50,165 bases of DNA from an uncultured Pelagibacteraceae bacterium (GCA_902569725.1 CACFVG010000006.1:1-50165), one strand, 5' to 3'. Positions 13,186 through 46,146 are shown, counted from the stretch's first letter. The notes: generated by a model not told the origin, from the letters alone. Program-made: numbers and translations.

Positions 13186-13186
<1 letters not shown>
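12437..13186 (-). CDS. etfB: Electron-transfer flavoprotein beta subunit
   Basis: A 249-aa protein starting [19 protein letters not shown], the standard EtfB opening. It contains the recognition-loop region [43 protein letters not shown] split across residues ~165-207, where EtfB contacts partner dehydrogenases. It overlaps both neighbours by one base, so its translation is tied to the DMGDH gene upstream and etfA downstream. AMP binding is expected from the family. Confidence 0.95.
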
Positions 13187-16158
<2,972 letters not shown>

Positions 16159-24547: not shown

Positions 24548-25176
24548 TATTTTACAACCTCGTAAAGACCTAACCATGCATTGACATCTTTGCTGGCAAT
24601 ATAGTTTGATTTAAAAAATTCTATTTCTTTCCATTTATTATCTTTATTAAGTTGATCTATTTTTTTATCAAAACCATACTCCTCATGAATTCCTTCATTA
24701 ATTGTAAAGCAAATGAATCCTTTGTTTTTGGTAATTCTAATAAATTCGTCCAATGCAGGCGGTTTTACATGTCCAAATGTAAATGTACCTACACACATTA
24801 CTGCATCATAAGAATTATCTTCTTCTTCAATAGTTTTGTTTAGGTCTACTTTATTTAATTTTTGATATAGGCCCATTGGTACTAAATCTAATAATTTTTG
24901 TGAAAGGTCTGCTCCATAAAAATTTGAAAATCCATATTTTTTTAATTCAACACCTACAAGTCCTGTTCCACAACCGGCATCATAAATTTTAGCATTTTTG
25001 TTTTTTTGATATTTAATAAAAACTTCTGATGTTTCTTTGGGTCCTGTATAATTCCAGTCAACCATATCCTGATCGTATTTATTTCCTTTACCCCATTCGT
25101 CATAGTATTTCATAACCTCATCGGTCTTTTTTAATTTATAGATTGGTACTTTGTTTCCTACGTCTTTTTGTGCCAT
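24547..25176 (-). CDS. Class-I SAM-dependent methyltransferase
   Basis: A 209-aa methyltransferase with motif I DAGCGTGLVGVELKKYG near residues 63-79, the acidic end of strand 2 in YGADLSQ, and AVMCVGTFTFGHV as the motif IV region. The N-terminal DEVMKYYDEWGKGNKYDQDM helix is typical of the WBSCR27-like group. The substrate is unknown. It overlaps both neighbours by one base. In an operon otherwise removing methyl groups, a methyl-adding enzyme is noteworthy. Confidence 0.82.
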   Translation of the reverse strand: MAQKDVGNKVPIYKLKKTDEVMKYYDEWGKGNKYDQDMVDWNYTGPKETSEVFIKYQKNKNAKIYDAGCGTGLVGVELKKYGFSNFYGADLSQKLLDLVPMGLYQKLNKVDLNKTIEEEDNSYDAVMCVGTFTFGHVKPPALDEFIRITKNKGFICFTINEGIHEEYGFDKKIDQLNKDNKWKEIEFFKSNYIASKDVNAWLGLYEVVK

Positions 25177-27581
25177 TAGCTCCTCATTTTTTGTCCAGTA
25201 GGGTCATAAAGTGGTTCTTTAACTATTGAACAGTTAAAAAAGTCGCCATTTATTTCGACTTGAATACCTTTGTCAGATTTTATTTCATTTTGATCAATGT
25301 AAGAAAAAGCAACACTTTTATTTACAAAGTGGGCAAAACCTCCAGAAGTTATATATCCAATGCTTTTATCACCTTTTAATACAGCTTCGTTGTAAGTCAC
25401 ATCAATGTCATTTGTTTCAACTATTAATGGGACTAATTTATTTTTACTTTCATCTTTTTGAGCACTATCTTTTCCAATAAAATCTTTATTCCAATTTATA
25501 AAAGCATCTAAACCAGTTTCTTTTGCTGTAAAATCAGGGCGATAATCTAATGTCCAAGCCCCCCAATTTTTTTCTAATCTCATAGACATTAATGCTCTTC
25601 CCCCAAAAGGCTTTATATTAAATTCTTTTCCAACATTTGTTAATTCTTCATACAATTTTAATTGAAAATGAGGAGCTACATAAATTTCGTATCCGAGCTC
25701 TCCTGTAAAAGATATTCTATTTACTATTGCAGGAACTCCAGCAACAAACATTTTTCTAGAGTCTCTAAACTTAAAACTATCATTAGAGACACTTTCTCTA
25801 ACAACTTTTTGCAAGAGTTCTCTAGATTTTGGTCCTGCAATGCCAAGACCGTGAAATTCATCAGACCTATTTTTGTATTGTAAATTAAATTTTTCTAAAT
25901 GACTCTCAAACCATCTTCTATGCATTTCTTGTGCTGCTCCTGATCCAAAAACCATAAATTCATTTTCGTCTAAACATGCAACAGTTAAGTCACCATAAAG
26001 TTTTCCTCTATATGTAAGCATAGGTGTTAAAGAAATTCTTCCAGGCTTAGGTAATTTACCAGCCATGATATGATCTAAAAATTTTCTAGAATCAGGACCT
26101 TTGAATTCATGTTTTGAAAAGTTGGCTACTTCAGTAATGCCTACATTTTCTCTTACATTTATTACTTCTTTTGAAACATAATTATGTGATCTTGACCTTT
26201 TAATTGTTGGTTCTTCATAAGCATCTTCTTTATTGTTAGCAAACCACAAAACATTTTCTAAACCAAAAGAATCTCCCATCACAGCTCCTTGTTCAACAAA
26301 ACGATCGTATAAAGCTGTTGTTTTTTGTTTTCTACCTTTTGGTAAAGTTTCGTTTGGAAAAGTCATTATAAATCTTCTTTCATAATTTTCTGAAGATTTA
26401 ATCGTTCCATATTGTGGTGATGCATAATCTCCAAATCTAGCAACATCCATTGCCCAAACATCTATTGATGGTTCGCCATCTATAATCCATTCGGCTATAC
26501 ATTTTCCAACTCCTCCTCCTTGGCAGAAACCAGCCATAACTCCAACAGCTACCCAATAATTTTTCATTCCAGGAACTGGGCCAATTAAAGGACTTCCATC
26601 AGGACCAAAAGTAAATGGGCCATTTACAATATTTTTTATTCCTGCTTTTTCTAAAGCGGGCATTCTCTCAAATCCAATAGCTAATCTGTCTTGAATATTA
26701 TCAAGCTTAGGCTCTAAAAGTTCGTGTCCAAAGTTCATAGGAGTTCCATCTACCTTCCATGGTGTAGATCTTTGTTCATAAGTTCCAAGCAACATACCTT
26801 TACCTTCTTGTCTAAAATAAATATTACCTTCAAAATCTGTTCCTATTGGTAGTCTTTGATCTCCTAGTGCTTCAATTTCTGGAATAGCTTCTGTAATTAA
26901 ATAGTGATGTTCCATAGGCTGAACGGGTAAATTTAATCCTGCTAAATTACCAACTTCTCTTGCCCATAATCCTCCAGCATTGATTACAATCTCTGCATTA
27001 ATATTTCCTTTATCTGTTACAACATTCCATAAGCCGTCTTCCTTTTGTTTAGTGTCTTTAACAACCGTATGAGTATAATATTTCCCTCCATTAACTTTTG
27101 CAGCTTTTGCAAAAGCATATGTAACACCCGATGGGTCAACCTCCCCATCTATTGGGTCCCATAATGCTAATAAATATCTAGATGGATCAATTAGTGGATT
27201 TTTCTTTTTTACTTCTTCAAGTGAAATAAATTCCTGATCTAGACCCATATATCTTGCTTTTGATCTTTCCCTTTTAAGATATTCAGCCCAAACATCATTT
27301 GAAGCTAAATAGAATCCTCCGCTTGGTTTAAATCCACAAGAATGTCCTGACTCTTTTTCTATTTCTTTGTAAAGACCTATCGTGTAGGCCATCATTCTTG
27401 AAATATTTGGATCATTAGAGATTACATGAACATTTCCAGCGGCATGCCATGAAGATCCTGATGTCAATTCATTCCTCTCTAAAAGAATACAATCTTTTAA
27501 ACCAAATTTAGAGAGGTGGTAGAGAATTGAACACCCCACTACACCACCTCCAATAATTACTACTTTAGCATTTTTTTCCAT
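25176..27581 (-). CDS. Dimethylglycine/sarcosine dehydrogenase-type FAD/THF enzyme (paralogue 2)
   Basis: An 801-aa enzyme with the same layout as the 810-aa paralogue 9.5 kb away. It has a FAD domain with VVIIGGGVVGCSILYHL (7-23), H46 in SGSSWHAAG as the probable covalent flavin site, and a C-terminal GcvT-like THF domain (GLGIAGPKSRELL, SFTGELGYEIY, MRLEKNWG). It follows bhmt with a one-base overlap. Dimethylglycine, the product of BHMT, is thus a likely substrate, with sarcosine the alternative. Electrons should go to the EtfAB encoded at the end of the same array. Confidence 0.87.
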   Translation of the reverse strand: MEKNAKVVIIGGGVVGCSILYHLSKFGLKDCILLERNELTSGSSWHAAGNVHVISNDPNISRMMAYTIGLYKEIEKESGHSCGFKPSGGFYLASNDVWAEYLKRERSKARYMGLDQEFISLEEVKKKNPLIDPSRYLLALWDPIDGEVDPSGVTYAFAKAAKVNGGKYYTHTVVKDTKQKEDGLWNVVTDKGNINAEIVINAGGLWAREVGNLAGLNLPVQPMEHHYLITEAIPEIEALGDQRLPIGTDFEGNIYFRQEGKGMLLGTYEQRSTPWKVDGTPMNFGHELLEPKLDNIQDRLAIGFERMPALEKAGIKNIVNGPFTFGPDGSPLIGPVPGMKNYWVAVGVMAGFCQGGGVGKCIAEWIIDGEPSIDVWAMDVARFGDYASPQYGTIKSSENYERRFIMTFPNETLPKGRKQKTTALYDRFVEQGAVMGDSFGLENVLWFANNKEDAYEEPTIKRSRSHNYVSKEVINVRENVGITEVANFSKHEFKGPDSRKFLDHIMAGKLPKPGRISLTPMLTYRGKLYGDLTVACLDENEFMVFGSGAAQEMHRRWFESHLEKFNLQYKNRSDEFHGLGIAGPKSRELLQKVVRESVSNDSFKFRDSRKMFVAGVPAIVNRISFTGELGYEIYVAPHFQLKLYEELTNVGKEFNIKPFGGRALMSMRLEKNWGAWTLDYRPDFTAKETGLDAFINWNKDFIGKDSAQKDESKNKLVPLIVETNDIDVTYNEAVLKGDKSIGYITSGGFAHFVNKSVAFSYIDQNEIKSDKGIQVEINGDFFNCSIVKEPLYDPTGQKMRS

Positions 27582-28627
27582 TAATATTTATTTTTCATAC
27601 TTGTGTTTATCTCTTTCAAAGATTTATCTGTCCCATGTAAAAAATGTCTACTCATATTTGGGTAGTATTTATATGCTATTGGTTTTCTACCTAATGCAAC
27701 TGACATTTCTCTAACATGATGAGGTTCTGCTCCACAACAAATTCCAATAAGATTAATATTTTGTTTTTGACAGTCCTTTGCAAACTCAGCCATTTCAAAT
27801 CTGTTACAATACAAATTATCTAATGCAACAGGGAATGCATTCCCTCCAGGTATACAATCGCACCCATAATCAGTTTGGTTTAAAAAACCTGGCTGTTCCT
27901 CTGTAGTTCTATATGGGACAGGTAAGGCTGCAACGTGACAAGAAACTTTTTCTCTTATTTCTGGTAAAAGTTTCATTGTCATCTTTGGACCTCTATAACA
28001 ATTTAATCCAACTACATCAGCTCCAAGATCTTCCATTATTTTGCAAGCATCACCAGGAGTATGTCCCTCTCTAGTTTTATCACCCTTCTTAATAGAAAAA
28101 TTTGTTACTGCAATCAAACCTTCATCCTTAATAGCTTTTAGAGCAATTTTCATTTCTTCAGTCCAATTTATTGTTTCAGCAACTATGAAATCTACACCAG
28201 CCTCTTTTGCCCAAGAAACTTGCTCTTCGTACATTTTTTGACACTGAGAATGACTTTTTTTGTCATTTGGGTCATAAATATTTGTATTTGCAACATCGCC
28301 ACAAACCAACAAATCAAGATCTTTAAATTCATCTCTTGCATCTTTTGCTATTTGAAGAGCATTTTTTTGTAAAGGCTCCAACAAATCTTCTTTGCCAATC
28401 AAACGTAATTTTTCTCTATGCCCATAGTAAGTAAATGCTTGAACAATATCAGATCCTGCTCTTATAAACTCTCTATGTAATTGAGACACTACCTCAGGAT
28501 GCTCTAGAACTACTTCTGGCACAAACGCTCCGGCTGATAAATATCCTCTTCTTTCCATTGCAAATAAATATCCTTCTGCAAAAAGAACAGGCCCTTCATT
28601 TAATCTTGTTATTAAATCTTTTGTCAT
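27581..28627 (-). CDS. bhmT: Betaine-homocysteine S-methyltransferase
   Basis: A 348-aa zinc methyltransferase moving a methyl from glycine betaine to homocysteine, giving dimethylglycine and methionine. Zinc ligands are C210 (GLNCYRGP) and C297/C298 (GICCGAEP). FAEGYLFAMERRGYL and TFYGH-like AFTYYGHREKLRL near residue 64 are the BHMT homocysteine and betaine regions. It is the first gene of a 20-gene minus-strand array, has an AGGAG ribosome site seven bases before the ATG, and is divergent from the betaine transporter genes. This ties uptake to use. Confidence 0.92.
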   Translation of the reverse strand: MTKDLITRLNEGPVLFAEGYLFAMERRGYLSAGAFVPEVVLEHPEVVSQLHREFIRAGSDIVQAFTYYGHREKLRLIGKEDLLEPLQKNALQIAKDARDEFKDLDLLVCGDVANTNIYDPNDKKSHSQCQKMYEEQVSWAKEAGVDFIVAETINWTEEMKIALKAIKDEGLIAVTNFSIKKGDKTREGHTPGDACKIMEDLGADVVGLNCYRGPKMTMKLLPEIREKVSCHVAALPVPYRTTEEQPGFLNQTDYGCDCIPGGNAFPVALDNLYCNRFEMAEFAKDCQKQNINLIGICCGAEPHHVREMSVALGRKPIAYKYYPNMSRHFLHGTDKSLKEINTSMKNKY

Positions 28628-30959: not shown

Positions 30960-31688
30960 ATGAATTTTTCTTTAGAAATTGGACCCAAAACTGATTTAGA
31001 TACTTTACCAAAATTAAAGGATGTATATGTAACTATGCTACCTGGTGGTGATTATAAAGAAACCTCAGAACAAGCTGCTAAATTAGTCAAAAAAGGCTTA
31101 AATCCAATACCCCATTTTCCTGCTAGATCTATTGAAAATGAAGCGCAACTAAAAGATTTTGTTAGTAGGTGTAAAAATGAGGGAGTAAAGCAAGCTTTGG
31201 TTATAGGGGGTAGTAGAGATCCTATTGGGAAATTCGACAGCTCAATTCAACTTTTAGAGACAGGATATTTTGAAAAGATGAAGATAGGAATCGCTGGACA
31301 TCCAGAGGGGAGTCCTGATATATCCGATTCAAAATTAGAAGAAGCTATGAAAGATAAAAAGCCTTATGCGGATTATATAGTCACTCAATGGTTATTAGAT
31401 CCTCAATTAATTGTAGACTTTATTTCTAAACAAACAGTACCAGTTCATGTTGGAATTACTGGACCACTAAAAATCACTAGCTTAATTAAGTTTGCTAATA
31501 TTGTAGGTGCAAAAAATTCCATAAATTTTCTTAAATCTAATTTTAGTAAGGCTTTAGATTTATTGAAACCTAAAGACCCAAATGACTTAATTGGAAAAGT
31601 TAAATCGCATACTGATTTCTTCCACATTTATACATTCGGCGGCTTGAAGGAAACTAACAAGTGGTTGATGGAGAACAAATATGTCTAA
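30960..31688 (+). CDS. Methylenetetrahydrofolate reductase-like protein (MetF family, short)
   Basis: A 242-aa TIM-barrel protein of the MetF family. FSLEIGPKTD, YVTMLPGGDYKETSEQAAKLVKKGLNPIPHFPAR, ALVIGGSRDP, GIAGHPEGSPD, and YIVTQWLLDPQLIVDFI are the MTHFR blocks in the right order. Canonical MetF is some 40-50 residues longer. It overlaps the DmdA-like gene by eight bases. The natural role is to oxidise or reduce the methyl-THF made by that enzyme, so the pair forms a demethylation unit. The ATG at 30960 has no clear ribosome site. Confidence 0.75.
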   Translation: MNFSLEIGPKTDLDTLPKLKDVYVTMLPGGDYKETSEQAAKLVKKGLNPIPHFPARSIENEAQLKDFVSRCKNEGVKQALVIGGSRDPIGKFDSSIQLLETGYFEKMKIGIAGHPEGSPDISDSKLEEAMKDKKPYADYIVTQWLLDPQLIVDFISKQTVPVHVGITGPLKITSLIKFANIVGAKNSINFLKSNFSKALDLLKPKDPNDLIGKVKSHTDFFHIYTFGGLKETNKWLMENKYV

Positions 31689-33039
31689 CGAATTTGACTA
31701 TACTAAACTAAAACATGTAACTTCAGTTGATCAATCTGATCGAGAAGTTCCATATAACTTAAGACAAAGTGGACCTACTAAAGTTGAGATGTTAATTTCA
31801 ACAAGAGTAAGAAAATCGCCTTATTGGCATTTATCAATGCAAGCTGGTTGTTGGAGAGCAACAGTTTATAATCGTATTTACCATCCTAGAGGATATGTAA
31901 AACCAGAAGATGGTGGTGCGATGGTAGAGTATGATGCAATTGTTAATCATGTAACAATGTGGAATGTTGCTGTTGAAAGGCAAATAAGAGTCAAAGGTCC
32001 AGATGCAGAAAAATTTACAGATTATGTTATTACTAGAGACGCAACAAAAATTTCTCCTATGAGAGCGAGATATGTAATCTTATGTAATGCTTATGGTGGA
32101 GTTTTAAATGATCCGATTCTCCTAAGAATTTCAAAAGATGAATTTTGGTTTTCATTATCAGACTCAGATATTGGTATGTATCTTCAGGGTGTTAATCATG
32201 ATGGAAGATTTAATTGTACAGTTGAAGAAATAGACGCTTGCCCTGTGCAAATTCAAGGTCCAAAATCAAAAGCTTTAATGAAAGATTTACTTGGTGATCA
32301 AGTAGATCTAGATAATATGCCTTTCTATGGTCTAGCAGAAGTTAAAGTTGCTGGAAGAAGTTGTGTTATTTCTCAATCTGGTTTCTCAGGAGAAGCGGGA
32401 TATGAAATATATTTAAGAAATGCAACATTATATGCTGACGATATGTGGAATGCAGTTCTTGAAGCTGGAAAAAAACATAATTTAATGGTTATTGCTCCAG
32501 CTCACCATAGAAGAATACAAGCAGGAATTCTATCGTGGGGACAAGATATGGATCAACAACATAATCCTTTTCAGTGTAATCTTGGTTATCAAGTTTCATT
32601 ATCAGGAAAAGGTGAATGGAATAAGAAGACTGATTATGTTGGTAAAGCAGCTTTAGAAAAAATGGGCGCTGAAATTAAAGCAGGAAAAAAACCTTATAAA
32701 CTACAATTAGTAGGGCTTGAATTAGGCGGCAAACCAATTGAAGAATATGCACCTGATTTTTGGTTAATTTCAAATGCTGATGGTGGAGACCCAGTAGGTT
32801 TTATTACATCACCTTGGTTTCATCCAGAAAAAAAACAAAACATTGCAATGGGATATGTTCCTTTTGATGGAACTTTAAATGCTAACGGCTTTCCTAAAGG
32901 TAAAGTTGGAACTAAATATAAAGTTCATTTACCTTCTAAATATTCGGATACACCAGGAACACCCGTTGATGCAGTTGTGGTTGACATACCATTTAAAGAA
33001 TCTTTTCACGCAAATACAAGAGAAGTGGTTAAAGGTTAG
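31681..33039 (+). CDS. DmdA/GcvT-family THF-dependent methyltransferase
   Basis: A 452-aa GcvT-fold protein. YDAIVNHVTMWNVAVERQIRVKGPDAEKFTDYVITRD (about 85-122), NDPILLRIS, PVQIQGPKSKALMKDLLG, and QSGFSGEAGYEIY are the aminomethyltransferase blocks. It lacks any flavin domain and is about 80 residues longer than DMSP demethylase DmdA. It follows a MetF-like gene (eight-base overlap) and the betaine transporter genes. A demethylase moving a methyl group from an imported osmolyte to THF is the best guess. DMSP, betaine or another compound cannot be separated by eye. Confidence 0.72.
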   Translation: MSNEFDYTKLKHVTSVDQSDREVPYNLRQSGPTKVEMLISTRVRKSPYWHLSMQAGCWRATVYNRIYHPRGYVKPEDGGAMVEYDAIVNHVTMWNVAVERQIRVKGPDAEKFTDYVITRDATKISPMRARYVILCNAYGGVLNDPILLRISKDEFWFSLSDSDIGMYLQGVNHDGRFNCTVEEIDACPVQIQGPKSKALMKDLLGDQVDLDNMPFYGLAEVKVAGRSCVISQSGFSGEAGYEIYLRNATLYADDMWNAVLEAGKKHNLMVIAPAHHRRIQAGILSWGQDMDQQHNPFQCNLGYQVSLSGKGEWNKKTDYVGKAALEKMGAEIKAGKKPYKLQLVGLELGGKPIEEYAPDFWLISNADGGDPVGFITSPWFHPEKKQNIAMGYVPFDGTLNANGFPKGKVGTKYKVHLPSKYSDTPGTPVDAVVVDIPFKESFHANTREVVKG

Positions 33040-33095: not shown

Positions 33096-33641
33096 ATGTT
33101 TGCACAATTTTTAAATATTGTATTTAGCTCAATAAAGCTTGATAAAAATTTATATAACGATAATAAATTTTTTGGTGAAGCAGGAATATATTTTGCTGGA
33201 TTAATAATGATTTTAGATGGTGTTGCTGGTGCTGTAGCTGCAAACTCAATAGTTAAAACTTCCATAGGTATTTCTGGATTAACTGCAATTTTAACTTGGC
33301 TAGTTTGGGCAATTTTTATTTATGTTATTGGAGTTAAATTATTTTCTGATAAAGAAACAAAAGTAACATTTAGAAAAATACTAATAGGTGTTGGATATGC
33401 CCATTCTCCTGGATTGCTTAGATTTTTTGCTGTAACACCAGAATTTGTAATTCCTATTGTATTTTTGACTCAATTTTGGATTTTTGCATCTTTAATAATT
33501 TCTACCAAACAAATTCTAAATTTAAAATCTAGTTTTAAAGCTTTTGGAATTGTATTCTTATCATTTTTAATCATAGTATTTTTATCTATCTCATTTATTA
33601 TGAGTAGAATGGATGCCCTGCCTATTAGCAATATTAGCTAG
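33096..33641 (+). CDS. YIP1-like integral membrane protein
   Basis: A 181-aa protein with about five hydrophobic segments (roughly residues 28-50, 58-80, 95-112, 116-136 and 148-170). The order of helices and the short loop with RKILIGVGYAHSPGLLRF before the third helix fit bacterial YIP1-domain proteins, whose function is unknown. It converges with the double-CxxC ORF, sharing four bases with it. It follows the DmdA-like operon but is separated from it by a terminator-like hairpin. Confidence 0.65.
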   Translation: MFAQFLNIVFSSIKLDKNLYNDNKFFGEAGIYFAGLIMILDGVAGAVAANSIVKTSIGISGLTAILTWLVWAIFIYVIGVKLFSDKETKVTFRKILIGVGYAHSPGLLRFFAVTPEFVIPIVFLTQFWIFASLIISTKQILNLKSSFKAFGIVFLSFLIIVFLSISFIMSRMDALPISNIS

Positions 33642-33799
33642 AGCGGAAATAGAGTTTTTGATATTTTGCAAGATTTACAAATTTTGTATCCTGTAAGCAT
33701 TAAATTTTCAGTCACACTTTTTTCAATATTTTTACATTCTTCACAAATATCATTTAATTCGCTTTCAACTATTTTATTTTTATCTATATCTTCAATCAT
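33638..33799 (-). CDS. Small double-CxxC protein (53 aa), zinc-ribbon-like
   Basis: This short frame starts at ATG 33797-33799, inside the end of the DUF3726 gene (eight-base overlap), and ends with TAG at 33638-33640. The protein has C19-x2-C22 and C41-x2-C44, separated by 18 residues. This is the geometry of a small zinc ribbon or iron-binding knuckle. The N-terminus is acidic. The overlap with a gene of known family and the two paired Cys motifs make a chance frame unlikely. The function is unknown; a partner role for DUF3726 or the 552-aa protein is inference. Confidence 0.7.
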   Translation of the reverse strand: MIEDIDKNKIVESELNDICEECKNIEKSVTENLMLTGYKICKSCKISKTLFPL

Positions 33800-34403
33800 T
33801 ATCAGTTAGCCCAGCGCCAGCGCCTCCTATTTTCAATGACTCTGTTTCTTCAACAAATGTTTCTTCTGACAATTTATAAAGTTCATTCCATTCATTTTCA
33901 TTAAATAAATTATTATTTTCTAAAAAACTAATATTTATATTATTACAATTTTCTAAAGTTTCATTTTTTAAATAATTTGAATAAATAGACTGGTTTAAAT
34001 TAAGTAAAAATTCTTTTTCATCAATTTTTAAAAAAATTTTTTTTCCTACAATCTCAGATGCTCTACTCACAAAAGGTAAAAATAGTATTGGAAAAGCTAT
34101 ATTTGATATTTGAATATTATTTTTCTTTTCTAGCAAGTTTACCTGATCAATAAAATTAGCACCTAAAATAATTGGACAAAAAGGATGCTTGTTTGCTTCA
34201 TTTAATTCTGAGATTAAAGCTATTTTTTGGAACTGTTGATTTTTATAATCTTTTAAATATTTATTTAAATTTTTTATTCCTGCTAACCCAAATAATTCTA
34301 ACAATCTCATATTCTTTCCTACTTCCTCGGCAATTCCCCAGGAAAAACCAGCACTTCTTGTTGCTCTTTTTGAAGTTGTGTCTATTTCACTTAATGTTTT
34401 CAT
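33792..34403 (-). CDS. DUF3726 family protein
   Basis: A 203-aa protein. The N-terminal LSEIDTTSKRATRSAGFSWGIAEEVGKNMRLLELFGLAGI (residues 3-42) is the part I recognise as DUF3726, of unknown function. The middle is ordinary for an AT-rich genome. The C-terminus ends in GGAGAGLTDND, encoded by an unusually GC-rich run (33809-33827). It overlaps the 552-aa gene by one base and the small CxxC ORF by eight. The glycine-rich tail looks like a functional end, for example an interaction or processing site, but nothing proves this. Confidence 0.7.
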   Translation of the reverse strand: MKTLSEIDTTSKRATRSAGFSWGIAEEVGKNMRLLELFGLAGIKNLNKYLKDYKNQQFQKIALISELNEANKHPFCPIILGANFIDQVNLLEKKNNIQISNIAFPILFLPFVSRASEIVGKKIFLKIDEKEFLLNLNQSIYSNYLKNETLENCNNINISFLENNNLFNENEWNELYKLSEETFVEETESLKIGGAGAGLTDND

Positions 34404-36061
34404 TAGTTTAAAGAATTATATACCCAATAATCATTAAATTTTTTTAGTTCATTCGGTAATGGTGCACCTTGAAACATACTTATTCTTAACCATTTGTTTG
34501 ATTTAGGATCAAATTTTACTGCCCCAAAAAAAGATAATTTTAATCGCAACATATCTATAGGCATTAAATTAGATCCAATAGTATTATCTTGAATTTCTGA
34601 GTAAGGAAATTTTTCTGATATAAATGCTCTTCTTACAACATGTCTAAGATCATTATTTTCTATTAAAAATCTACCGATACTTAAACTATTTTTTTGATTT
34701 GATATTCTTTCATATAACTTTTTTATATCCCTTGCTATTGCCAAAGGTTGTTCTAAATCTGATCCTTGTTCTTTGTATCTATTTGCTATTCTTGGTTCCT
34801 CTTTATTTTTTGAAATAAACCAAAAATTTTCATTACTTTCTTTTTTATCAAAATCAATTTTTAAAATATCTGAATATTTTTTTTCTAGTATATTTCTTAA
34901 ATCAAGTACAGTTCTGTCTCCTGGTATATTAAAAAATTTTTCTTCTTCAGAACTCATTTCATGAATTAAAGGATCAACAATAGAATCGTATGGTTCTAGC
35001 ATCATAGAAACAATATACTCTGAACATTCTAAATCTAGATTTTCCTCAGTCCATAAATACAGCTTGTTAAAAGAAAATTTTTCTTCAAAACTGAAAGTGT
35101 CAATAAAAATTAGCAATTTATTTAGATCTTTTATTAATTGTTTTATTTTATTTTTTTGAAATTCACTTTCTGTATTCCAAGAAGTTATATTTTTTAGAGA
35201 TTTTTTTAAACATTCAACAAAAATATCAAAATCTTCTTTTTTAACATTTTTTACTTCTCTAACCTTTTTTAAAGCCTTTTCTCTTGCAAGTATCCAATTA
35301 TTTAAAAGTGTTGGATGATTTATAATAAAAGGTGCCATTCCAAGACCTGTAGAATTTCCAATTCCTAAATTTCTAGAAATTTCTTTATCTAACTCAACAA
35401 AATTTTTTGGATTTCTGTGACTTGCTATATGATTAACCTGGTCAAAAGTAAATTGTCTAACTAAATAAACTAACATCATCTCCAGTCTGAATGGCCCACA
35501 AATTTCTTCTCTATTTTTAATTCTAAATCTATCAGCTAGTCCAAATTTTCCTGATCCATATACAGCTGTAGTTCTATATAAGTATCCAACTTTTGATAAA
35601 AATTCCTTGTTGGGTTGTCTTCCATTTGAAAGGCTATCAATAACATGTTCAAAAGCTCTAACTGATTTATTTGCTCTTGAAAGTGTTAACTCTTTATATG
35701 AAAGTCTACCAACTTCTTGTTTTGGAACATTTAGTTCTAATCTCTCAATGTCATTTTTTGTAGGAATACCATCATGTAATACAAAAGCTGCATCCCATTT
35801 TGTTGCTATTACTCTATCTGATCTTTCTTTGTCGCTTATTTTATTTGCAAAGCAAATTAACGAGTAAGTTCTGTTTTTTTTTGAAAAAGAATAAACTGCT
35901 CGTCCATATCCATTTTGGTCTAAATCAAAAAGATTTCTATTATATTCCCAATCTTTAAATTCTTTTAAAAATGATCTTAAAAAAGATAATTTTGATTGAT
36001 GAAAAGATCCGAGTCTTGACAGTTTCATAATAAGTTTTGGATCTCTTAATTCTATCTGCAT
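34403..36061 (-). CDS. Large conserved-looking protein of unknown function (552 aa)
   Basis: A 552-aa soluble protein without signal peptide or membrane segments. I do not recognise a family. Visible features are a charged N-terminus with RLGSFHQSKLSFLRSFLKE, a basic central part, lysine-rich probable helices around residues 255-320, and an ordered C-terminal part with SIGRFLIENNDLRHVVRRAF and LRISMFQGAPLPNELKKFN. No nucleotide-binding loop, Cys cluster or His-Asp motif stands out. It sits one base after the M19 gene and overlaps DUF3726 by one base, so all are translated together. It is clearly a gene by length and codon use. Confidence 0.8.
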   Translation of the reverse strand: MQIELRDPKLIMKLSRLGSFHQSKLSFLRSFLKEFKDWEYNRNLFDLDQNGYGRAVYSFSKKNRTYSLICFANKISDKERSDRVIATKWDAAFVLHDGIPTKNDIERLELNVPKQEVGRLSYKELTLSRANKSVRAFEHVIDSLSNGRQPNKEFLSKVGYLYRTTAVYGSGKFGLADRFRIKNREEICGPFRLEMMLVYLVRQFTFDQVNHIASHRNPKNFVELDKEISRNLGIGNSTGLGMAPFIINHPTLLNNWILAREKALKKVREVKNVKKEDFDIFVECLKKSLKNITSWNTESEFQKNKIKQLIKDLNKLLIFIDTFSFEEKFSFNKLYLWTEENLDLECSEYIVSMMLEPYDSIVDPLIHEMSSEEEKFFNIPGDRTVLDLRNILEKKYSDILKIDFDKKESNENFWFISKNKEEPRIANRYKEQGSDLEQPLAIARDIKKLYERISNQKNSLSIGRFLIENNDLRHVVRRAFISEKFPYSEIQDNTIGSNLMPIDMLRLKLSFFGAVKFDPKSNKWLRISMFQGAPLPNELKKFNDYWVYNSLN

Positions 36062-36062
36062 T

Positions 36063-37028
36063 TTAAATATTTTTATAAAAATTATACCAATTATTTCCTA
36101 AAATTCCTTCTACCTCATCTTGATTAAATCCAATTTTTTTTAGGCCACTTTCCAAATTTTTAAATCCTCTTGCATCTTCAAACCAAACTGGTTGCTTTGG
36201 AAAACCAGGTTTATTTTTTGATCCTTCTCCATAACTTTTTGTTTTTGTCCAAGTGCCATTTCTCATCCATTCAACAACTTTATCAGGTTGTTTTAAACAC
36301 AAATCCGAACCTATACCTATATTTTTTACTCCTATCAATTCAGCCGTTTTTGCTGTCATTTCACAAAAATTTTCTAAATTACAATTCGTTCCGTCTTTAA
36401 GGTGGTGAGGATACAACGAAAGACCAATCATGCCACCACTTTGTGCTAAAGTTTTTAATAAATCATTTGATTTATTTCTAATTGCCTTGTGCCAAAATAA
36501 TGGATTAGCATGAGTTATTGCAATTGGTTTCTCACTTATTTGTATTGCATCAAATGTACTTTTTTCAGCAGAATGAGACATATCAATTACGATTCCAACT
36601 CTATTCATTTCTTTAATTACTTCTTTTCCAAAATTAGTAACTCCACTATCAATTTTTTCATAACATCCTGTGGCTAAAAGAGATTGATTGTTATAAGTAA
36701 GTTGCATAAATTTACATCCTAGTTGATGTACTTTTTCAATTAAGTTTATGTCATCTTCAATTGGAGAGCAGTTTTGAAAACCAAAAAATATTGCTGTTTT
36801 TTTTTGTTCTTTTGCTTTTTCTATATCTTTATAACTTTTGCCATGAAAAATTAAATCGGAATTATCTTTAAAATTTATATTCCATTCATCTACTCTTTTT
36901 AATAATTCATCATAATCTTCATGATAAACTATAGTAACATGAACAGCATCCAATTCTGCTTCCCTATTAATTTCAAAAATTTCTCTAGACCAATTACAAT
37001 ATTGTAAATTATCGATTTTATAATTCAT
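36063..37028 (-). CDS. M19 (renal dipeptidase) family protein with a degenerate metal site
   Basis: A 321-aa TIM-barrel amidohydrolase-type protein. Family blocks remain: GCKFMQLTYNNQS, GIVIDMSHSAEKS with H152, ITHANP with H173, RNKSNDLLKTLAQSGGMIGLSLYPHH, and GIGSDLCL. The N-terminal H-x-D zinc ligands are absent (LQYCNW at 8-13). The bridging E-G is Q85-N86, and the LTHN histidine is Tyr. Classical two-zinc dipeptidase activity is therefore doubtful. From memory, an M19-family gene lies next to the dimethylglycine genes of Pseudomonas, so a role in osmolyte catabolism is possible. Confidence 0.8.
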   Translation of the reverse strand: MNYKIDNLQYCNWSREIFEINREAELDAVHVTIVYHEDYDELLKRVDEWNINFKDNSDLIFHGKSYKDIEKAKEQKKTAIFFGFQNCSPIEDDINLIEKVHQLGCKFMQLTYNNQSLLATGCYEKIDSGVTNFGKEVIKEMNRVGIVIDMSHSAEKSTFDAIQISEKPIAITHANPLFWHKAIRNKSNDLLKTLAQSGGMIGLSLYPHHLKDGTNCNLENFCEMTAKTAELIGVKNIGIGSDLCLKQPDKVVEWMRNGTWTKTKSYGEGSKNKPGFPKQPVWFEDARGFKNLESGLKKIGFNQDEVEGILGNNWYNFYKNI

Positions 37029-37042
37029 TTTTAATTTTAAGA

Positions 37043-37429
37043 TTAGATACCTTTTTTTATAAGATTATATATATCTCTTTCATTATACAATCCTATCTCG
37101 CGAGCTAATTCTTTGTTATCCTTATAAACAACAATAGTTGTCCAATAATCAATATTTAATAGATCCGCAATGTCTTTATTTTTAGTTTGTTCAAAATTCA
37201 TAAAAATAACGTTTTCAAAGTCTTTTTTTGCTTTTTCCAGTATTGGTTTCTGTTTTGCGCATGTGCTACAAAATTTATTCCAGGAATGAATGACAACTAT
37301 TTTTCCATTATTTTGAGCAAATTTAAATTTTTCGATGTTAAAATTTGTCTCATACTCACCAGCAAAAGAACTTGTGGAAATTAACATTATAAAAAAAGCC
37401 AATATTTTCATTATAATTCTAAATAACAT
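37043..37429 (-). CDS. Exported thioredoxin-like protein
   Basis: A 128-aa thioredoxin-fold protein with a signal peptide (FFIMLISTSSFAG) and the redox motif C-S-T-C in HSWNKFCSTCAKQKP. The cis-proline position reads YWTTIVVY with Thr instead of Pro, which is unusual. ELAREIGLYNERDIYNLI fits the final helix. ATG codons at 37429 and 37411 are both possible; the second gives a cleaner signal peptide. It would act in the periplasm as a thiol reductant or oxidant. It is the first gene of the minus-strand module that continues with M19 after 13 bases. Confidence 0.75.
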   Translation of the reverse strand: MLFRIIMKILAFFIMLISTSSFAGEYETNFNIEKFKFAQNNGKIVVIHSWNKFCSTCAKQKPILEKAKKDFENVIFMNFEQTKNKDIADLLNIDYWTTIVVYKDNKELAREIGLYNERDIYNLIKKGI

Positions 37430-41040: not shown

Positions 41041-41628
41041 TTAAATTGCTTGAAAACCAAATTCCAATGAAGAGTCTGTTATAGAATGGTAAAAAGATTC
41101 TCCAAAACTTCTCAAAGCAAATAACCTTATTTTATTAGGATGGTCATCTATCATGTCTACTGTAAATGCTATACCATTATAGGTTGAATTTATTGAATTG
41201 TTTTTTTCTAAAATATTAAAATTAAATGGACATCCCTTTTTTAAAACTTCTTTTACTTCTTTTCCTTCTATTTCAATTACTGCACGAGAGTGAGATAAAT
41301 CTGTTACGGCAAAATCTGTTTCTTTAAAAACTTCATAGATATTTTTAAGTAAATCTTTTTTTGTTGAAACTAAAAGCCAATTTTTTGGACCATTCCATAA
41401 TATTCTTGTATCAGAATTACTAACTACATTTAGTGGGTCATTTTTTAAATTTAAACTATCAATATCAATAGTTTCAAATGAAATAGTAGAATTTTTGTAC
41501 TGAACTATTTGTACTATAAGTAAATTTTTAACTTCTGAGACTTTTAATAAATTCTCTTTATCTTTCTTTTCATAATTTCCAAAAAGACCTGCTCTATGTA
41601 TATGATTTAATGCTGATACCGATGTCAT
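41041..41628 (-). CDS. soxG: Sarcosine oxidase gamma subunit
   Basis: A 195-aa subunit of heterotetrameric sarcosine oxidase, related to the GcvT N-terminal fold. Recognisable parts are RILWNGPKNWLLVST, FAVTDLSHSRAVIEIEG, EVLKKGCPFN and a final LRSFGESFYHSITDSSLEFG. It overlaps soxA by four bases and completes the soxBDAG order. The subunit helps form the THF-handling channel with SoxA by family knowledge. Confidence 0.88.
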   Translation of the reverse strand: MTSVSALNHIHRAGLFGNYEKKDKENLLKVSEVKNLLIVQIVQYKNSTISFETIDIDSLNLKNDPLNVVSNSDTRILWNGPKNWLLVSTKKDLLKNIYEVFKETDFAVTDLSHSRAVIEIEGKEVKEVLKKGCPFNFNILEKNNSINSTYNGIAFTVDMIDDHPNKIRLFALRSFGESFYHSITDSSLEFGFQAI

Positions 41629-44621
41629 GATCTTACTCTTTCTCCTTTAGGATCAACATAATGTGATGAAACTATTTCAACAGGTATTGTTTTATTTTTT
41701 AAAGGAGACATTGCAAAAAGTTTTTGACCAATCATATTTTTTCCATCTTTAATAATTGCAAGTGAAAATGGATTATCATATTCAACACTCCAACATGAAG
41801 CTGATACATGGCCTAATTTAGGATTTGGAAGTTTTGCTTTTGCATCTTTAACTATATAAGATCCTTCTGGGATGCTTGTTTTTTTATCTAGCGGAACAAC
41901 ACCAACTACTTTCTGCCTATCTTCTTCTAAATAAGCTGATTTGCTTAAAGATCTCTTACCAATAAAATCTTTTTTCTTGCTGACCAAACCTTCTAGGGAG
42001 TTATCATAAGGAATTGTACGTCCATCTAATTCAGATCCTGCAACGTGACCCATTTCTATTCTTAATGTAGATAGTGCTTCTGTTCCATATGGTTGAATAT
42101 TAAACTCTTTTCCAATATCCATTATTTTTTCCCACATAAAGTTACCATTATCAGACTCAACATTTATCTCATAAGCAAGTTCACCAGAAAAAGAAATTCT
42201 GAAAATTTTTGCATTAATTCCAAATAAATTGCCTTCTATATATCCCATAAATGGTAAGCCTTCGCTTGAAACATCTAGATCTGGAAATAATTTTTGCAAA
42301 ACTTCTCTAGATTTTGGTCCTGCTATTGCTGCGCCTGCCCACTGCTCAGTACTTGAAACTACATTTACATTCAACTCAGGCCACACTAATTGTAAATAAT
42401 ATTCTAGATGAGACAAAACATTTGCCGCTTGAGCGGTTGTAGTTGTCATATGATAATGGTTTTCTGATATTCTTGTTGTTGTTCCATCATCCATTACAAT
42501 CCCATCCTCTCTTAACATTACGCCATATCTTGCTTTACCAACTGGCAACTTAAGCCAAGCATTGGTGTAAACTCTATTTAATAATTCGGCTGCATCAGGC
42601 CCTTTAATATCAATTTTACCTAAAGTTGTTACATCACAAACTCCAACATTTTGTCTAACATTTTTTGCTTCTCTCTTTGAAGCTTCAAATAAATTTTCAT
42701 TTCCTTGTTTATAATACCTTGGACGCAACCAAACACCTGCATCGACAAACACTGCGTTGTTTTTTTCATGCCAATAGTGCATTGGTGATTTTCTTGTAGG
42801 TTTTGAATGTTTTCCAATTTCTCTTCCAACAATTGCTCCTATTGAAACAGGTGAATAAGGTGGTCTAAAAGTTGTATGACCCACTTGAGGGACAACTTTA
42901 TTTTCTATATCTGAGACTAACTGTAACCCGTTAAGATTACTTGTCCTACCTTGGTCTGTAGCCATTCCTAATGTTGTATATCTTTTAACATGTTCAATTG
43001 ATCTATAACCTTCCCTTAAAGCAAGCTGTATATCAGATACGGTAACATCGTTTTGAAAATCTAAAAATCTTTTATAATTTTTTCCTTCCGGTAATGGCAC
43101 ACACCAAAATTTATCATGATTAGAAGATTTTTTTTCTACTACGGTGGGAACTGAAACTTTATTTTCTTTATTTGTTATTTCCTTTGATAGCTCACTTCCT
43201 TTTTTAAAAGATGAATTTAAAGTTTCTTCTAATGTAAAAACTCCATTAGCTGCTCCAAGAGTTGTTTCTTTTTGTTTGGATTGACTAGGGATAAACGCAT
43301 CTATCTCTTCATTAAATTTAGTTTTATTACCAGATTGTGAAGCTAAATGAATTGTTGGCGTCCAAAATCCTGACACACAAATACAATCACATTTTATATT
43401 TTCAATATTAGTTATACTTTTTTTATCATCTGATATTTTTGCAATATTTGCAGAATTAACTTTTTTATAGCCTTTGGCTGCAGCAACAACATAAGAAAAT
43501 TTTATATTTATATTTAATTCTTTAGCTTCTTTAATAATTTCTGAATTAGCTTCTTTTCTTGTATCTAAAATGATTGGATCTACTCCATTTTTTTTGAATT
43601 CGATTGCAGTTTCGTATCCACTATCATTATTTGTAAATATAATTGGTTTTTTTCCGACTAAAACTCCATAAACTTTTAAATATTCCTTAGCTGCAGATGA
43701 AAGCATAACACCTGGAACATCATTGTTTCCAAATACCAGAGGTCTTTCTATTGATCCGGATGAAATAATAACTTGTTTTGCACGTATGTACCAAAGCCTT
43801 TGTTTAGGAATATATTTTTCAGTTCTAGGTAAGTGATCACTAACTCTCTCAGACATAACGAGCATGTTGTGATCGTAATAACCAAAAACTTGAGATCTAT
43901 TTTTAACAGTTACATTTGGCATTGATTTGAGTTCAGATATTATTTTCTCTGACCACTCTTTTCCGCTTTGATTTCCAATTGTAACTTCACTGGTTAAAAG
44001 GCTTCCACCAAATCTAGATTTGTCTTCAGCTAAAATTACTTTTGCACCATTTTGAGCTGCAGCATAAGCACTTGCTAGACCGGAAGGACCTGATCCTGCT
44101 ATTAAAAGATCACAATATTCATATTTATGTTCATATCGTTCTTTATCACGTTTAATGGATGCAGCTCCAAAACCTGCAGCTTTTCTAATAATTGGCTCAT
44201 AAAATTTGTACCAAAAACTTTTAGGCCACATAAAGGTTTTATAATAAAAACCTGCAGGAAAAAATTTGTTTAAAAAATTATTGATTGCACCAATATCAAA
44301 ATCTACATTTGGCCAACAATTCACACTTTTTGCTTCTAAACCTTCAAATAACTCTTGCTCTGTCGCTCTTACATTAGGATCGACTTCATTATTTCTGTTC
44401 ATTTGAACTATTGCATATGGTTCGTCTACACCTGCTCCAAAAAATCCTCTAGGTCTATGATATTTAAAACTTCTACCAACTAAATGAACTCCATTTGCAA
44501 TTAAAGCTGAAGCTAAAGTATCTCCCTCATAACCAAAGTATTTTTTTCCATTAAATTTAAATGAAATTTTTTTATTTCTATTTATTAATCCACCTTGTTT
44601 TAATCTAAAACTTTCAGACAT
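41625..44621 (-). CDS. soxA: Sarcosine oxidase alpha subunit
   Basis: A 998-aa multidomain subunit. Residues 1-100 form a ferredoxin-like domain (FEGDTLASALIANG-type YEGDTLASALIANG, YHRPRGFFG). About 170-480 is the NAD/FAD-type Rossmann region (LLIAGSGPSGLASAYAAAQNG). The C-terminal 380 residues are a GcvT-like THF domain (AAIAGPKSREVL, SFSGELAYEIN, RIEMGHVAG). The complex oxidises sarcosine to glycine and places the C1 unit on THF, making hydrogen peroxide. N-methylglutamate dehydrogenase has a related layout and is the main alternative. It starts one base after soxD. Confidence 0.9.
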   Translation of the reverse strand: MSESFRLKQGGLINRNKKISFKFNGKKYFGYEGDTLASALIANGVHLVGRSFKYHRPRGFFGAGVDEPYAIVQMNRNNEVDPNVRATEQELFEGLEAKSVNCWPNVDFDIGAINNFLNKFFPAGFYYKTFMWPKSFWYKFYEPIIRKAAGFGAASIKRDKERYEHKYEYCDLLIAGSGPSGLASAYAAAQNGAKVILAEDKSRFGGSLLTSEVTIGNQSGKEWSEKIISELKSMPNVTVKNRSQVFGYYDHNMLVMSERVSDHLPRTEKYIPKQRLWYIRAKQVIISSGSIERPLVFGNNDVPGVMLSSAAKEYLKVYGVLVGKKPIIFTNNDSGYETAIEFKKNGVDPIILDTRKEANSEIIKEAKELNINIKFSYVVAAAKGYKKVNSANIAKISDDKKSITNIENIKCDCICVSGFWTPTIHLASQSGNKTKFNEEIDAFIPSQSKQKETTLGAANGVFTLEETLNSSFKKGSELSKEITNKENKVSVPTVVEKKSSNHDKFWCVPLPEGKNYKRFLDFQNDVTVSDIQLALREGYRSIEHVKRYTTLGMATDQGRTSNLNGLQLVSDIENKVVPQVGHTTFRPPYSPVSIGAIVGREIGKHSKPTRKSPMHYWHEKNNAVFVDAGVWLRPRYYKQGNENLFEASKREAKNVRQNVGVCDVTTLGKIDIKGPDAAELLNRVYTNAWLKLPVGKARYGVMLREDGIVMDDGTTTRISENHYHMTTTTAQAANVLSHLEYYLQLVWPELNVNVVSSTEQWAGAAIAGPKSREVLQKLFPDLDVSSEGLPFMGYIEGNLFGINAKIFRISFSGELAYEINVESDNGNFMWEKIMDIGKEFNIQPYGTEALSTLRIEMGHVAGSELDGRTIPYDNSLEGLVSKKKDFIGKRSLSKSAYLEEDRQKVVGVVPLDKKTSIPEGSYIVKDAKAKLPNPKLGHVSASCWSVEYDNPFSLAIIKDGKNMIGQKLFAMSPLKNKTIPVEIVSSHYVDPKGERVRS

Positions 44622-44622
44622 A

Positions 44623-44889
44623 TTATAATTCTTCGTTACCCTTTAATGTTTTAAATATTTCGTGAGTTAATGTGTCTCTTTCAATTTTAATCCATTGTCT
44701 ACATCCTGAAATATGTTGCCACAATTCTAGATGCTTTCCTCTTGGACTTTTTCGTAAATAAACAAAATTATCCCATTCCTGGTTTGATATTTCTTTGTTT
44801 AATGCCGGTCTTTTAACTGTAGCATCACCACCATATGAAAATTCATTTTGAGACCTTAATCCACAGTGAGGGCATTTAATATGTAACAT
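44623..44889 (-). CDS. soxD: Sarcosine oxidase delta subunit
   Basis: An 88-aa zinc subunit. C6 and C9 (IKCPHCGLRSQNEFSYGG) with H59 and C63 (WQHISGCRQW) match the four zinc ligands known from SoxD structures. WDNFVYLRKSPRGKHLELW is the conserved centre. It abuts soxB with no gap and lies one base before soxA, fixing the operon order. All key residues are present. Confidence 0.95.
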   Translation of the reverse strand: MLHIKCPHCGLRSQNEFSYGGDATVKRPALNKEISNQEWDNFVYLRKSPRGKHLELWQHISGCRQWIKIERDTLTHEIFKTLKGNEEL

Positions 44890-46146
44890 TTAAGAAATCC
44901 AAGTTTTTGTTCCAAGACCTTTTTCGTCAATTAAATGTCCAGTGCTGAATCTATTTAGACTATAACCCTCATTTAATTTATGTGGTCTGTCTTGAGCAAT
45001 TGTATGGGCAAAAGTCCAGCCAGATGCAGGAGTTGCTTTAAATCCTCCATAACACCATCCACAGTTTAAATATAAACCCTCAATATGTGTTTTATCAATA
45101 ATAGGTGATCCATCCATAGACATATCCATAATTCCACCCCATGTTCTAAGCATTTTTAATTTACTTAAAAAAGGAAACATTGCTATTCCTTCGGTTAATA
45201 CGTGTTGTAATGTTGGAAGGTTTCCTCTTTGAGCGTAACTGTTATATCCATCAAGATCTCCGCCCATAACCATTTCACCTTTATCAGATTGACTACAATA
45301 AAAATGTCCTGCACCAAACGTAACTACGTTATCTAATATTGGCTTAATAGGTTCTGACACACATGCCTGTAAAAGATGTGTTTCTACAGGTAATGTCATA
45401 TTTAATTTCTCTGCTAAAACATTTGTACTTCCAGCAACACAAAGACCTATTTTTTTTGCTTTAATATCACCTTTTGAAGTTCTTATTCCTAAAATTTTAC
45501 CTTTAGAAACATCAAATCCTGTCACTTCACAATTTTGGATTATATCTACTCCCATTGAGTCTGCTTGACGTGCGTACCCCCAAGCAACTGCATCATGTCT
45601 GGCTGTTCCTGCGCTTGGTTGCATTAATCCTCCAAAAATTGGAAATCTTACATTTTCAGAAAAATCTGCCATAGGAATAATTTTTCTGACCTCTTCTCTA
45701 TTTAAAAGAACTGCATCAATTCCATTTAAGCGCATTGAATTACCTCTTCTAGAATAAGTATTCATTTGTGCATCAGAATGTGCAAGATTAATTATTCCTC
45801 TCGGAGAAAACATTACGTTAAAATTTAAATCCTGACTCATATTTCTCCACAAATCCATACCAAATTCACTAAACAATCCATTTTCGTCGTGCATATAATT
45901 TGATCTTATTATAGTAGTGTTTCTTCCAACGTTACCTCCGCCTATCCAACCTTTTTCAATAATAGCGACTTTTGTAATATTGTGTTCTTTAGCAAGGTAG
46001 TAAGCTGTAGCCAGGCCGTGACCTCCACCTCCTATAATTATAACGTCATATTCGGATTTAGGTGTCGGATCTTTCCAAGCGACTTCCCAATCTTTATGAC
46101 CCTTAAAAGCATTTTTTATAAGGCTGAAGACTGAATATTTTTGCAT
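44890..46146 (-). CDS. soxB: Sarcosine oxidase beta subunit
   Basis: A 418-aa flavoprotein subunit. YDVIIIGGGGHGLATAYYLAKEH at about residues 33-55 binds FAD. GWIGGGNVGRNTTIIRSNY, GGLMQPSAGTARHDAVAWGYAR, and LNCGWCYGGFKATPASGW are the SoxB blocks, the middle one near the covalent FMN histidine. It is the catalytic subunit oxidising sarcosine. It is the first gene of the operon, and its promoter must lie in the 137-base spacer shared with fhs. Confidence 0.95.
   Translation of the reverse strand: MQKYSVFSLIKNAFKGHKDWEVAWKDPTPKSEYDVIIIGGGGHGLATAYYLAKEHNITKVAIIEKGWIGGGNVGRNTTIIRSNYMHDENGLFSEFGMDLWRNMSQDLNFNVMFSPRGIINLAHSDAQMNTYSRRGNSMRLNGIDAVLLNREEVRKIIPMADFSENVRFPIFGGLMQPSAGTARHDAVAWGYARQADSMGVDIIQNCEVTGFDVSKGKILGIRTSKGDIKAKKIGLCVAGSTNVLAEKLNMTLPVETHLLQACVSEPIKPILDNVVTFGAGHFYCSQSDKGEMVMGGDLDGYNSYAQRGNLPTLQHVLTEGIAMFPFLSKLKMLRTWGGIMDMSMDGSPIIDKTHIEGLYLNCGWCYGGFKATPASGWTFAHTIAQDRPHKLNEGYSLNRFSTGHLIDEKGLGTKTWIS

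Follow-up and report, generated by a model that had tools for sequence, protein, structure and literature searches.

SAR11 bacteria are among the most abundant cells in the ocean, where zwitterionic algal osmolytes such as homarine (N-methylpyridinium-2-carboxylate) represent a sizeable flux of labile carbon and nitrogen. Opening of an N-methylpyridinium carboxylate ring is described for trigonelline (N-methylnicotinate), which the tgnABCDEF pathway of Acinetobacter degrades through N-formyl and semialdehyde intermediates, using a two-component flavin monooxygenase and yielding a C4 skeleton. For homarine itself, Ferrer-Gonzalez and colleagues reportedly described in 2026 an operon of five enzymes and a regulator, homABCDER, in Rhodobacterales, SAR11 and SAR116; our literature search returned no mention of homABCDER. 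A paper that cites this work (Nat Microbiol 11:1531) states that N-methylglutamate dehydrogenase (Mgd) takes part in homarine catabolism (PMC13390433), and homarine is drawn down rapidly by Ruegeria pomeroyi (PMC12817926). Methylamine oxidation in SAR11 proceeds through N-methylglutamate and gamma-glutamylmethylamide; SAR11 sox operons have been proposed to encode N-methylglutamate dehydrogenase or sarcosine oxidase, with Sun et al. proposing the former for one of two such operons and leaving undecided which one (PMC3160333). The type III glutamine synthetase group corresponds to the gamma-glutamylmethylamide synthetase family (PMC7948447; PMC3160333).

The locus described here lies in a 50,165-nucleotide stretch of DNA from an uncultured Pelagibacteraceae bacterium (GCA_902569725.1 CACFVG010000006.1:1-50165), hereafter the window. 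Five minus-strand open reading frames occupy positions 33638-37429, encoding in order a thioredoxin-like protein (37043..37429), an M19 protein of 321 aa (36063..37028), a 552-aa protein termed BIG (34403..36061), a DUF3726 protein of 203 aa (33792..34403) and a zinc-ribbon-like double-CxxC protein of 53 aa (33638..33799). The successive spacings of +14, +1, -1 and -8 bases agree with the tight packing (gaps or overlaps of at most 14 bases) reported in the initial annotation. A codon comparison with two close SAR11 loci gave dN/dS values of 0.07-0.21 for all five genes, indicating purifying selection and thus that all five are real. Family scans returned thioredoxin, peptidase M19 and DUF3726 for the first, second and fourth genes, respectively, and nothing for the other two. 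PurE and a 181-aa gene flank the cluster and are also conserved in SAR11 loci; the latter (33096-33641) encodes a membrane-like protein of no known family, is convergent with the CxxC gene and adjoins it in 71 of 76 SAR11 loci.

Conservation and genomic company of the core genes

We compared 80 SAR11 loci taken from genome contigs, the window included, with 51 loci of other Proteobacteria. M19 adjoined BIG in every SAR11 locus with enough upstream flank (79/79), and DUF3726 adjoined BIG in every one with enough downstream flank (76/76). Outside SAR11, M19 was close to BIG in 47 of the 51 loci, down to 25% identity, and a DUF3726-type gene lay beside BIG in essentially all of them; in Mesorhizobium (locus L022) BIG and DUF3726 are fused into one 814-aa protein. 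The triad is kept across Alpha-, Beta- and Gammaproteobacteria, soil and plant bacteria included, on plasmids as well as chromosomes and with differing flanks. It is retained even in a distant clade at ~25-28% identity (Sinorhizobium, Bosea, Variovorax, Rhizobium and two further genomes), together with an IclR-type regulator, other transporters and a DUF3726-like partner that is homologous to DUF3726 by profile comparison (probability 96%). The adjacency within and beyond SAR11, the Mesorhizobium fusion and the retention in the distant clade together argue that M19, BIG and DUF3726 almost certainly form a functional unit, their packing being far beyond chance. Judged by gene order, the triad is an ancient, inseparable enzyme set common to many marine and soil bacteria. 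The initial annotation had read conserved packing as a sign of a shared job and named scattering in relatives as the check; these three genes are not scattered, and for them the idea stands.

Within the SAR11 order, BIG was carried by 40 of the 61 genomes searched, and by 11 of the 18 high-quality ones, and is thus accessory. No relatives were found among viral contigs. In the BIG tree, the SAR11 sequences are nested inside the clade that carries the full operon, with Mesorhizobium nearest. A second group of BIG paralogues, 36-40% identical to the SAR11 protein, occurs in Rhodobacteraceae (L165, L168-L172, L175-L177) without a close aldehyde dehydrogenase (ALDH) or Ldh; it lies near a truA-like gene in several cases, and both paralogues occur together in some genomes.

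In Roseobacteraceae, Vibrio, Pseudomonas and Rhizobiales, the triad is often accompanied by LysR, RidA, an ALDH, an Ldh_2-family enzyme and a BCCT or glycine-betaine ABC transporter. A close ALDH of one type was near the triad in 27 of the 51 non-SAR11 loci, and a close Ldh_2 enzyme (at least 55% identical) in 12. For all four operon ALDHs tested, the best model was 2,5-dioxovalerate / alpha-ketoglutaric-semialdehyde dehydrogenase, which led by 64-99 bits at scores below the curated cut-offs. The operon Ldh_2 enzyme was nearest to 1wtj, a delta1-piperideine-2-carboxylate reductase; relatives of this reductase make N-methyl amino acids. The distant clade keeps the triad with neither ALDH nor Ldh, so possession of the triad is not enough to identify the substrate.

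A sister family within the SAR11 order shows related company. In most of its loci the triad runs convergently towards an ALDH; one genus has beside it an Ldh_2 enzyme 49-52% identical to that of Roseobacter, and the other has close to it a type III glutamine synthetase (gmaS; PDB 7cql, 6e-156, above the TIGR03105 cut-off). The sister-family ALDH scores best as a betaine-aldehyde dehydrogenase, so the inference of a product is weaker there. In one locus (L193) a soxBDAG operon directly adjoins the triad, and its SoxA is 70% identical to SoxA of the soxGADB operon in the window, against 47-48% to the second paralogue. The window operon (soxG-soxA-(soxD)-soxB, 41041..46146, minus strand) lies 4 kb from the triad, scores above cut-off for TIGR01372 and TIGR01373, and is a candidate N-methylglutamate dehydrogenase or sarcosine oxidase that could act downstream.

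All seven sister-family loci (L193:5012-5638 and L195:7832-8428, with orthologues in L192, L194, L196, L197 and L199), and no other locus examined, encode a protein of 199-209 aa that matches Asp_Arg_Hydrox, of the 2-oxoglutarate oxygenase type, next to the triad or to its ALDH. This protein was considered as a missing oxygenase; it stands beside the triad in the sister family only. Pot-type (spermidine/putrescine-like) ABC transporters are neighbours of the triad in the distant clade (L025, L030, L031, L173, L174) as well as in the sister family (L192-L199).

In the window, no LysR, ALDH, Ldh or transporter gene was found beside the triad, and the dehydrogenases and LysR are missing from nearly all Pelagibacteraceae loci. 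The closest ALDH and Ldh homologues in the genome of the window are 29-36% identical, among them an Ldh_2 homologue on another contig (35-36%) that is nearest to 1wtj. The triad alone is clustered in this SAR11, and genes at other sites in the genome would have to supply the dehydrogenases and the transporter.

Features of the three core proteins

BIG had been described as unrecognised, and family scans and a PDB profile search likewise gave no convincing match in Pfam, NCBIfam, PHROGs or the PDB. Homologues at 25-46% identity occur in Alpha-, Beta- and Gammaproteobacteria. An alignment of 61 sequences contains 57 near-universal positions, among them 15 arginines, one histidine and no cysteine. 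No oxygenase or flavin domain was recognised, and with a single universal histidine BIG is unlikely to be a two-His iron oxygenase. The predicted model, folded from an alignment of SAR11 sequences only (71-95% identity), was poor (pLDDT 61), and its fold searches yielded nothing above noise, with no match at 0.001 in Foldseek and a highest VIA Z of 4.4; we therefore claim no fold for BIG.

The M19 protein matches PF01244 over residues 17-318 (5.8e-70) and finds PDB 2i5g (an amidohydrolase) at 7.5e-57 and the renal dipeptidase 1itq at 4.4e-19. It shares with 1itq the M19 fold, two histidines, an aspartate and the substrate-binding arginine (His152, His173, Asp242 and Arg184), which are invariant in 53 of 53 relatives. 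In contrast to renal-type dipeptidases, the HxD motif and the bridging glutamate are missing from the same 53 relatives, all of which have Gln85, and 2i5g shows the same losses. The lack of zinc ligands noted in the initial annotation is thus confined to HxD and the glutamate. Because all 53 relatives lack these, we do not expect the protein to work as a dipeptidase with a binuclear zinc site, and the residue pattern indicates a variant that consistently has a single site, not a copy in decay.

The DUF3726 protein matches PF12525 (2.3e-21; 75.9 bits against a gathering cut-off of 22.1), and our literature search returned no mention of the family. Its AlphaFold2 model has a pLDDT of 89.9. All of the best 25 Foldseek rows belong to the Ldh_2 family, with E-values of only 3e-3, and in VIA the family reaches a Z-score of 10.7, where the runner-up fold has 3.8. 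Sequence profiles alone are only suggestive, giving a probability of 40% in one comparison and 3% in another, and two distant DUF3726-like proteins match PF02615 weakly (0.0054 and 0.1). We therefore predict, mainly on the strength of the model, that DUF3726 is a shortened Ldh_2 fold. The N-terminal motif aligns in register with that of Ldh_2 enzymes, but the protein is ~130 residues shorter (203 aa against about 335), has no full-length NAD(P)-binding architecture and does not conserve the catalytic histidine of the SHG motif, which is variable, though some members read SHG or SHD.

The glycine-rich end of DUF3726, earlier regarded as odd, is present and proves to be more strongly conserved across the family than any other segment. 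It comprises the final ten residues (GAGAGLTDND), within a pattern SRxxGAGAGxxDND found in most members, and sets DUF3726 apart from the Ldh_2 family. That this tail is modelled as disordered, yet is the most conserved part of the protein, suggests that it acts inside a partner, most likely BIG. The predicted Ldh_2 likeness of DUF3726 with its conserved disordered tail, the ligand pattern of M19 and the near-universal residue profile of BIG are new here. BIG-DUF3726 offers a tractable target, with an enzyme chemistry described by no family so far.

A candidate route for homarine degradation

The sequences show the inseparable triad, its operon company, the enzyme families and the residue losses, and from these we infer the substrate and every reaction step. 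The triad quite probably supplies the central enzymes for breaking down a cyclic amino acid that is N-methylated or of betaine type. This accords with the earlier suggestion of osmolyte catabolism, which the operon company makes a likely role. The transporters, a dehydrogenase for a five-carbon aldehyde, a cyclic-imine reductase and nearby genes for N-methylglutamate or methylamine use together fit homarine, which we propose as the most likely substrate, with N-methylglutamate or methylamine as the end of the route (probability about 0.6).

The assignment of steps to enzymes is tentative throughout. BIG, as a putative catalytic subunit, and DUF3726, as its partner subunit, would attack the C5-C6 edge of the pyridinium ring and open it there, so that ring carbon 6 stays bound to the nitrogen in an N-formyl group or its equivalent. 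As a single-metal hydrolase, M19 would then cleave the C-N bond of this group to release formate; by atom balance, conversion of homarine to N-methylglutamate requires the loss of ring carbon 6. The ALDH would oxidise the C5 aldehyde, and the Ldh_2-family imine reductase would yield N-methylglutamate, or imine hydrolysis would give 2-oxoglutarate and methylamine. Finally, N-methylglutamate would be handled by a dehydrogenase of the soxBDAG type, or methylamine by gmaS, to deliver glutamate and a C1 unit. The N-methylglutamate / gamma-glutamylmethylamide pathway of SAR11 methylamine oxidation (PMC3160333) would thus lie downstream of the triad and is distinct from it. A more specific version of this scheme, speculative and rather unlikely to hold in every part, is that BIG and DUF3726 open the ring of N-methylpyridinium carboxylates as a novel enzyme class, one with no relationship to either the flavin monooxygenases or the two-His iron oxygenases; in this version DUF3726 would be a decayed Ldh_2-fold imine reductase serving as substrate subunit, its tail completing the BIG active site, and the single-metal M19 would be a deformylase.

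Compared with the trigonelline pathway, no flavin monooxygenase recurs with the triad, and the type of ALDH suggests a C5 rather than a C4 skeleton. The full operon found outside SAR11, with five enzymes and LysR, resembles the reported homarine operon and points to N-methylglutamate, and the individual genes may correspond. The window differs from the full Roseobacter operon in having just the core together with a SAR11-only CxxC protein. The excerpted papers on Phaeobacter pPGA1_262 do not touch the triad genes. Several observations count against homarine: the ring-opening step is assigned to a protein in which no oxygenase or flavin domain was recognised, ALDH and Ldh are missing from the window cluster, the sister-family ALDH resembles betaine-aldehyde dehydrogenase, the sox operon could encode nothing more than a sarcosine oxidase, and a streamlined genome may place genes side by side incidentally. 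If the proposal is correct, M19-BIG-DUF3726 would serve as a compact marker with which homarine-type flux could be traced in genomes and transcriptomes.

Other substrates and the flanking thiol proteins

It is possible, if somewhat doubtful, that the triad degrades another cyclic or quaternary betaine with a C5 end (hydroxyproline betaine, proline betaine or pipecolate betaine) or another N-methylated amine, and that homarine is not the SAR11 substrate. A 2-oxoglutarate-semialdehyde-type ALDH would also serve hydroxyproline-type routes, and the presence of the triad in soil and plant bacteria is in keeping with such substrates, as are mandelate-racemase-family genes and a second BCCT near the Pseudomonas cluster, and a trimethylamine-methyltransferase-family gene and FAD oxidoreductase near the Mesorhizobium cluster. 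However, known demethylations of these betaines employ Rieske, corrinoid or flavin enzymes, none of which is a recurrent part of the operon. The position of gmaS and soxBDAG beside the triad speaks for a product that is either methylamine or an N-methyl imine.

The two outer genes of the cluster bear on a different possibility, that the triad is a protein-modification or maturation set (amidohydrolase fold, BIG enzyme and scaffold) whose thioredoxin and CxxC neighbours mark a thiol or metal-handling job. The thioredoxin-like protein is, as first described, apparently exported, with a signal-like N-terminus, a CSTC motif and a PF00085 match (4.2e-11; 43.2 bits against a cut-off of 23.5), and the 53-aa protein does contain two CxxC pairs. 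In the window the two are encoded on either side of the triad, and BIG is of no recognised fold. Yet the thioredoxin gene was present in only three of the 80 SAR11 loci (the window, L033 and L034); in 74 of 79, PurE lies 48-167 bases from M19, which leaves no space for it, and it was rejected as a module member. The double-CxxC protein was detected in 72 of 76 SAR11 loci (dN/dS about 0.2) and in none of the 51 loci of other lineages. Judging from this distribution, both are local SAR11 additions, the thioredoxin a sporadic neighbour. The proposed five-gene unit thus reduces to the triad, and the suggested thiol-centred job finds no counterpart in BIG, which has no universal cysteine. With LysR or IclR regulators, transporters and dehydrogenases recurring around the triad, a maturation role is very improbable. 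Neutral co-location stands as an explanation for the thioredoxin. Streamlined genomes do hold gene order for long, and the flanking PurE and 181-aa genes show conservation as well. For the triad, however, neutral co-location is refuted and hardly worth entertaining, as the three genes stay together across three proteobacterial classes, among different flanks, on plasmids and chromosomes, and fused in one lineage.

Further genes were observed in the window. A short MTHFR-like gene overlaps one for a 452-aa DmdA/GcvT-like aminomethyltransferase (30960-33039) that scores far under the DMSP demethylase cut-off. Two FAD-oxidase/GcvT fusions of the sarcosine or dimethylglycine dehydrogenase kind are encoded at 13186-15618 (810 aa) and 25176-27581 (801 aa), the latter adjoining a homocysteine-methyltransferase-family gene (27581-28627).
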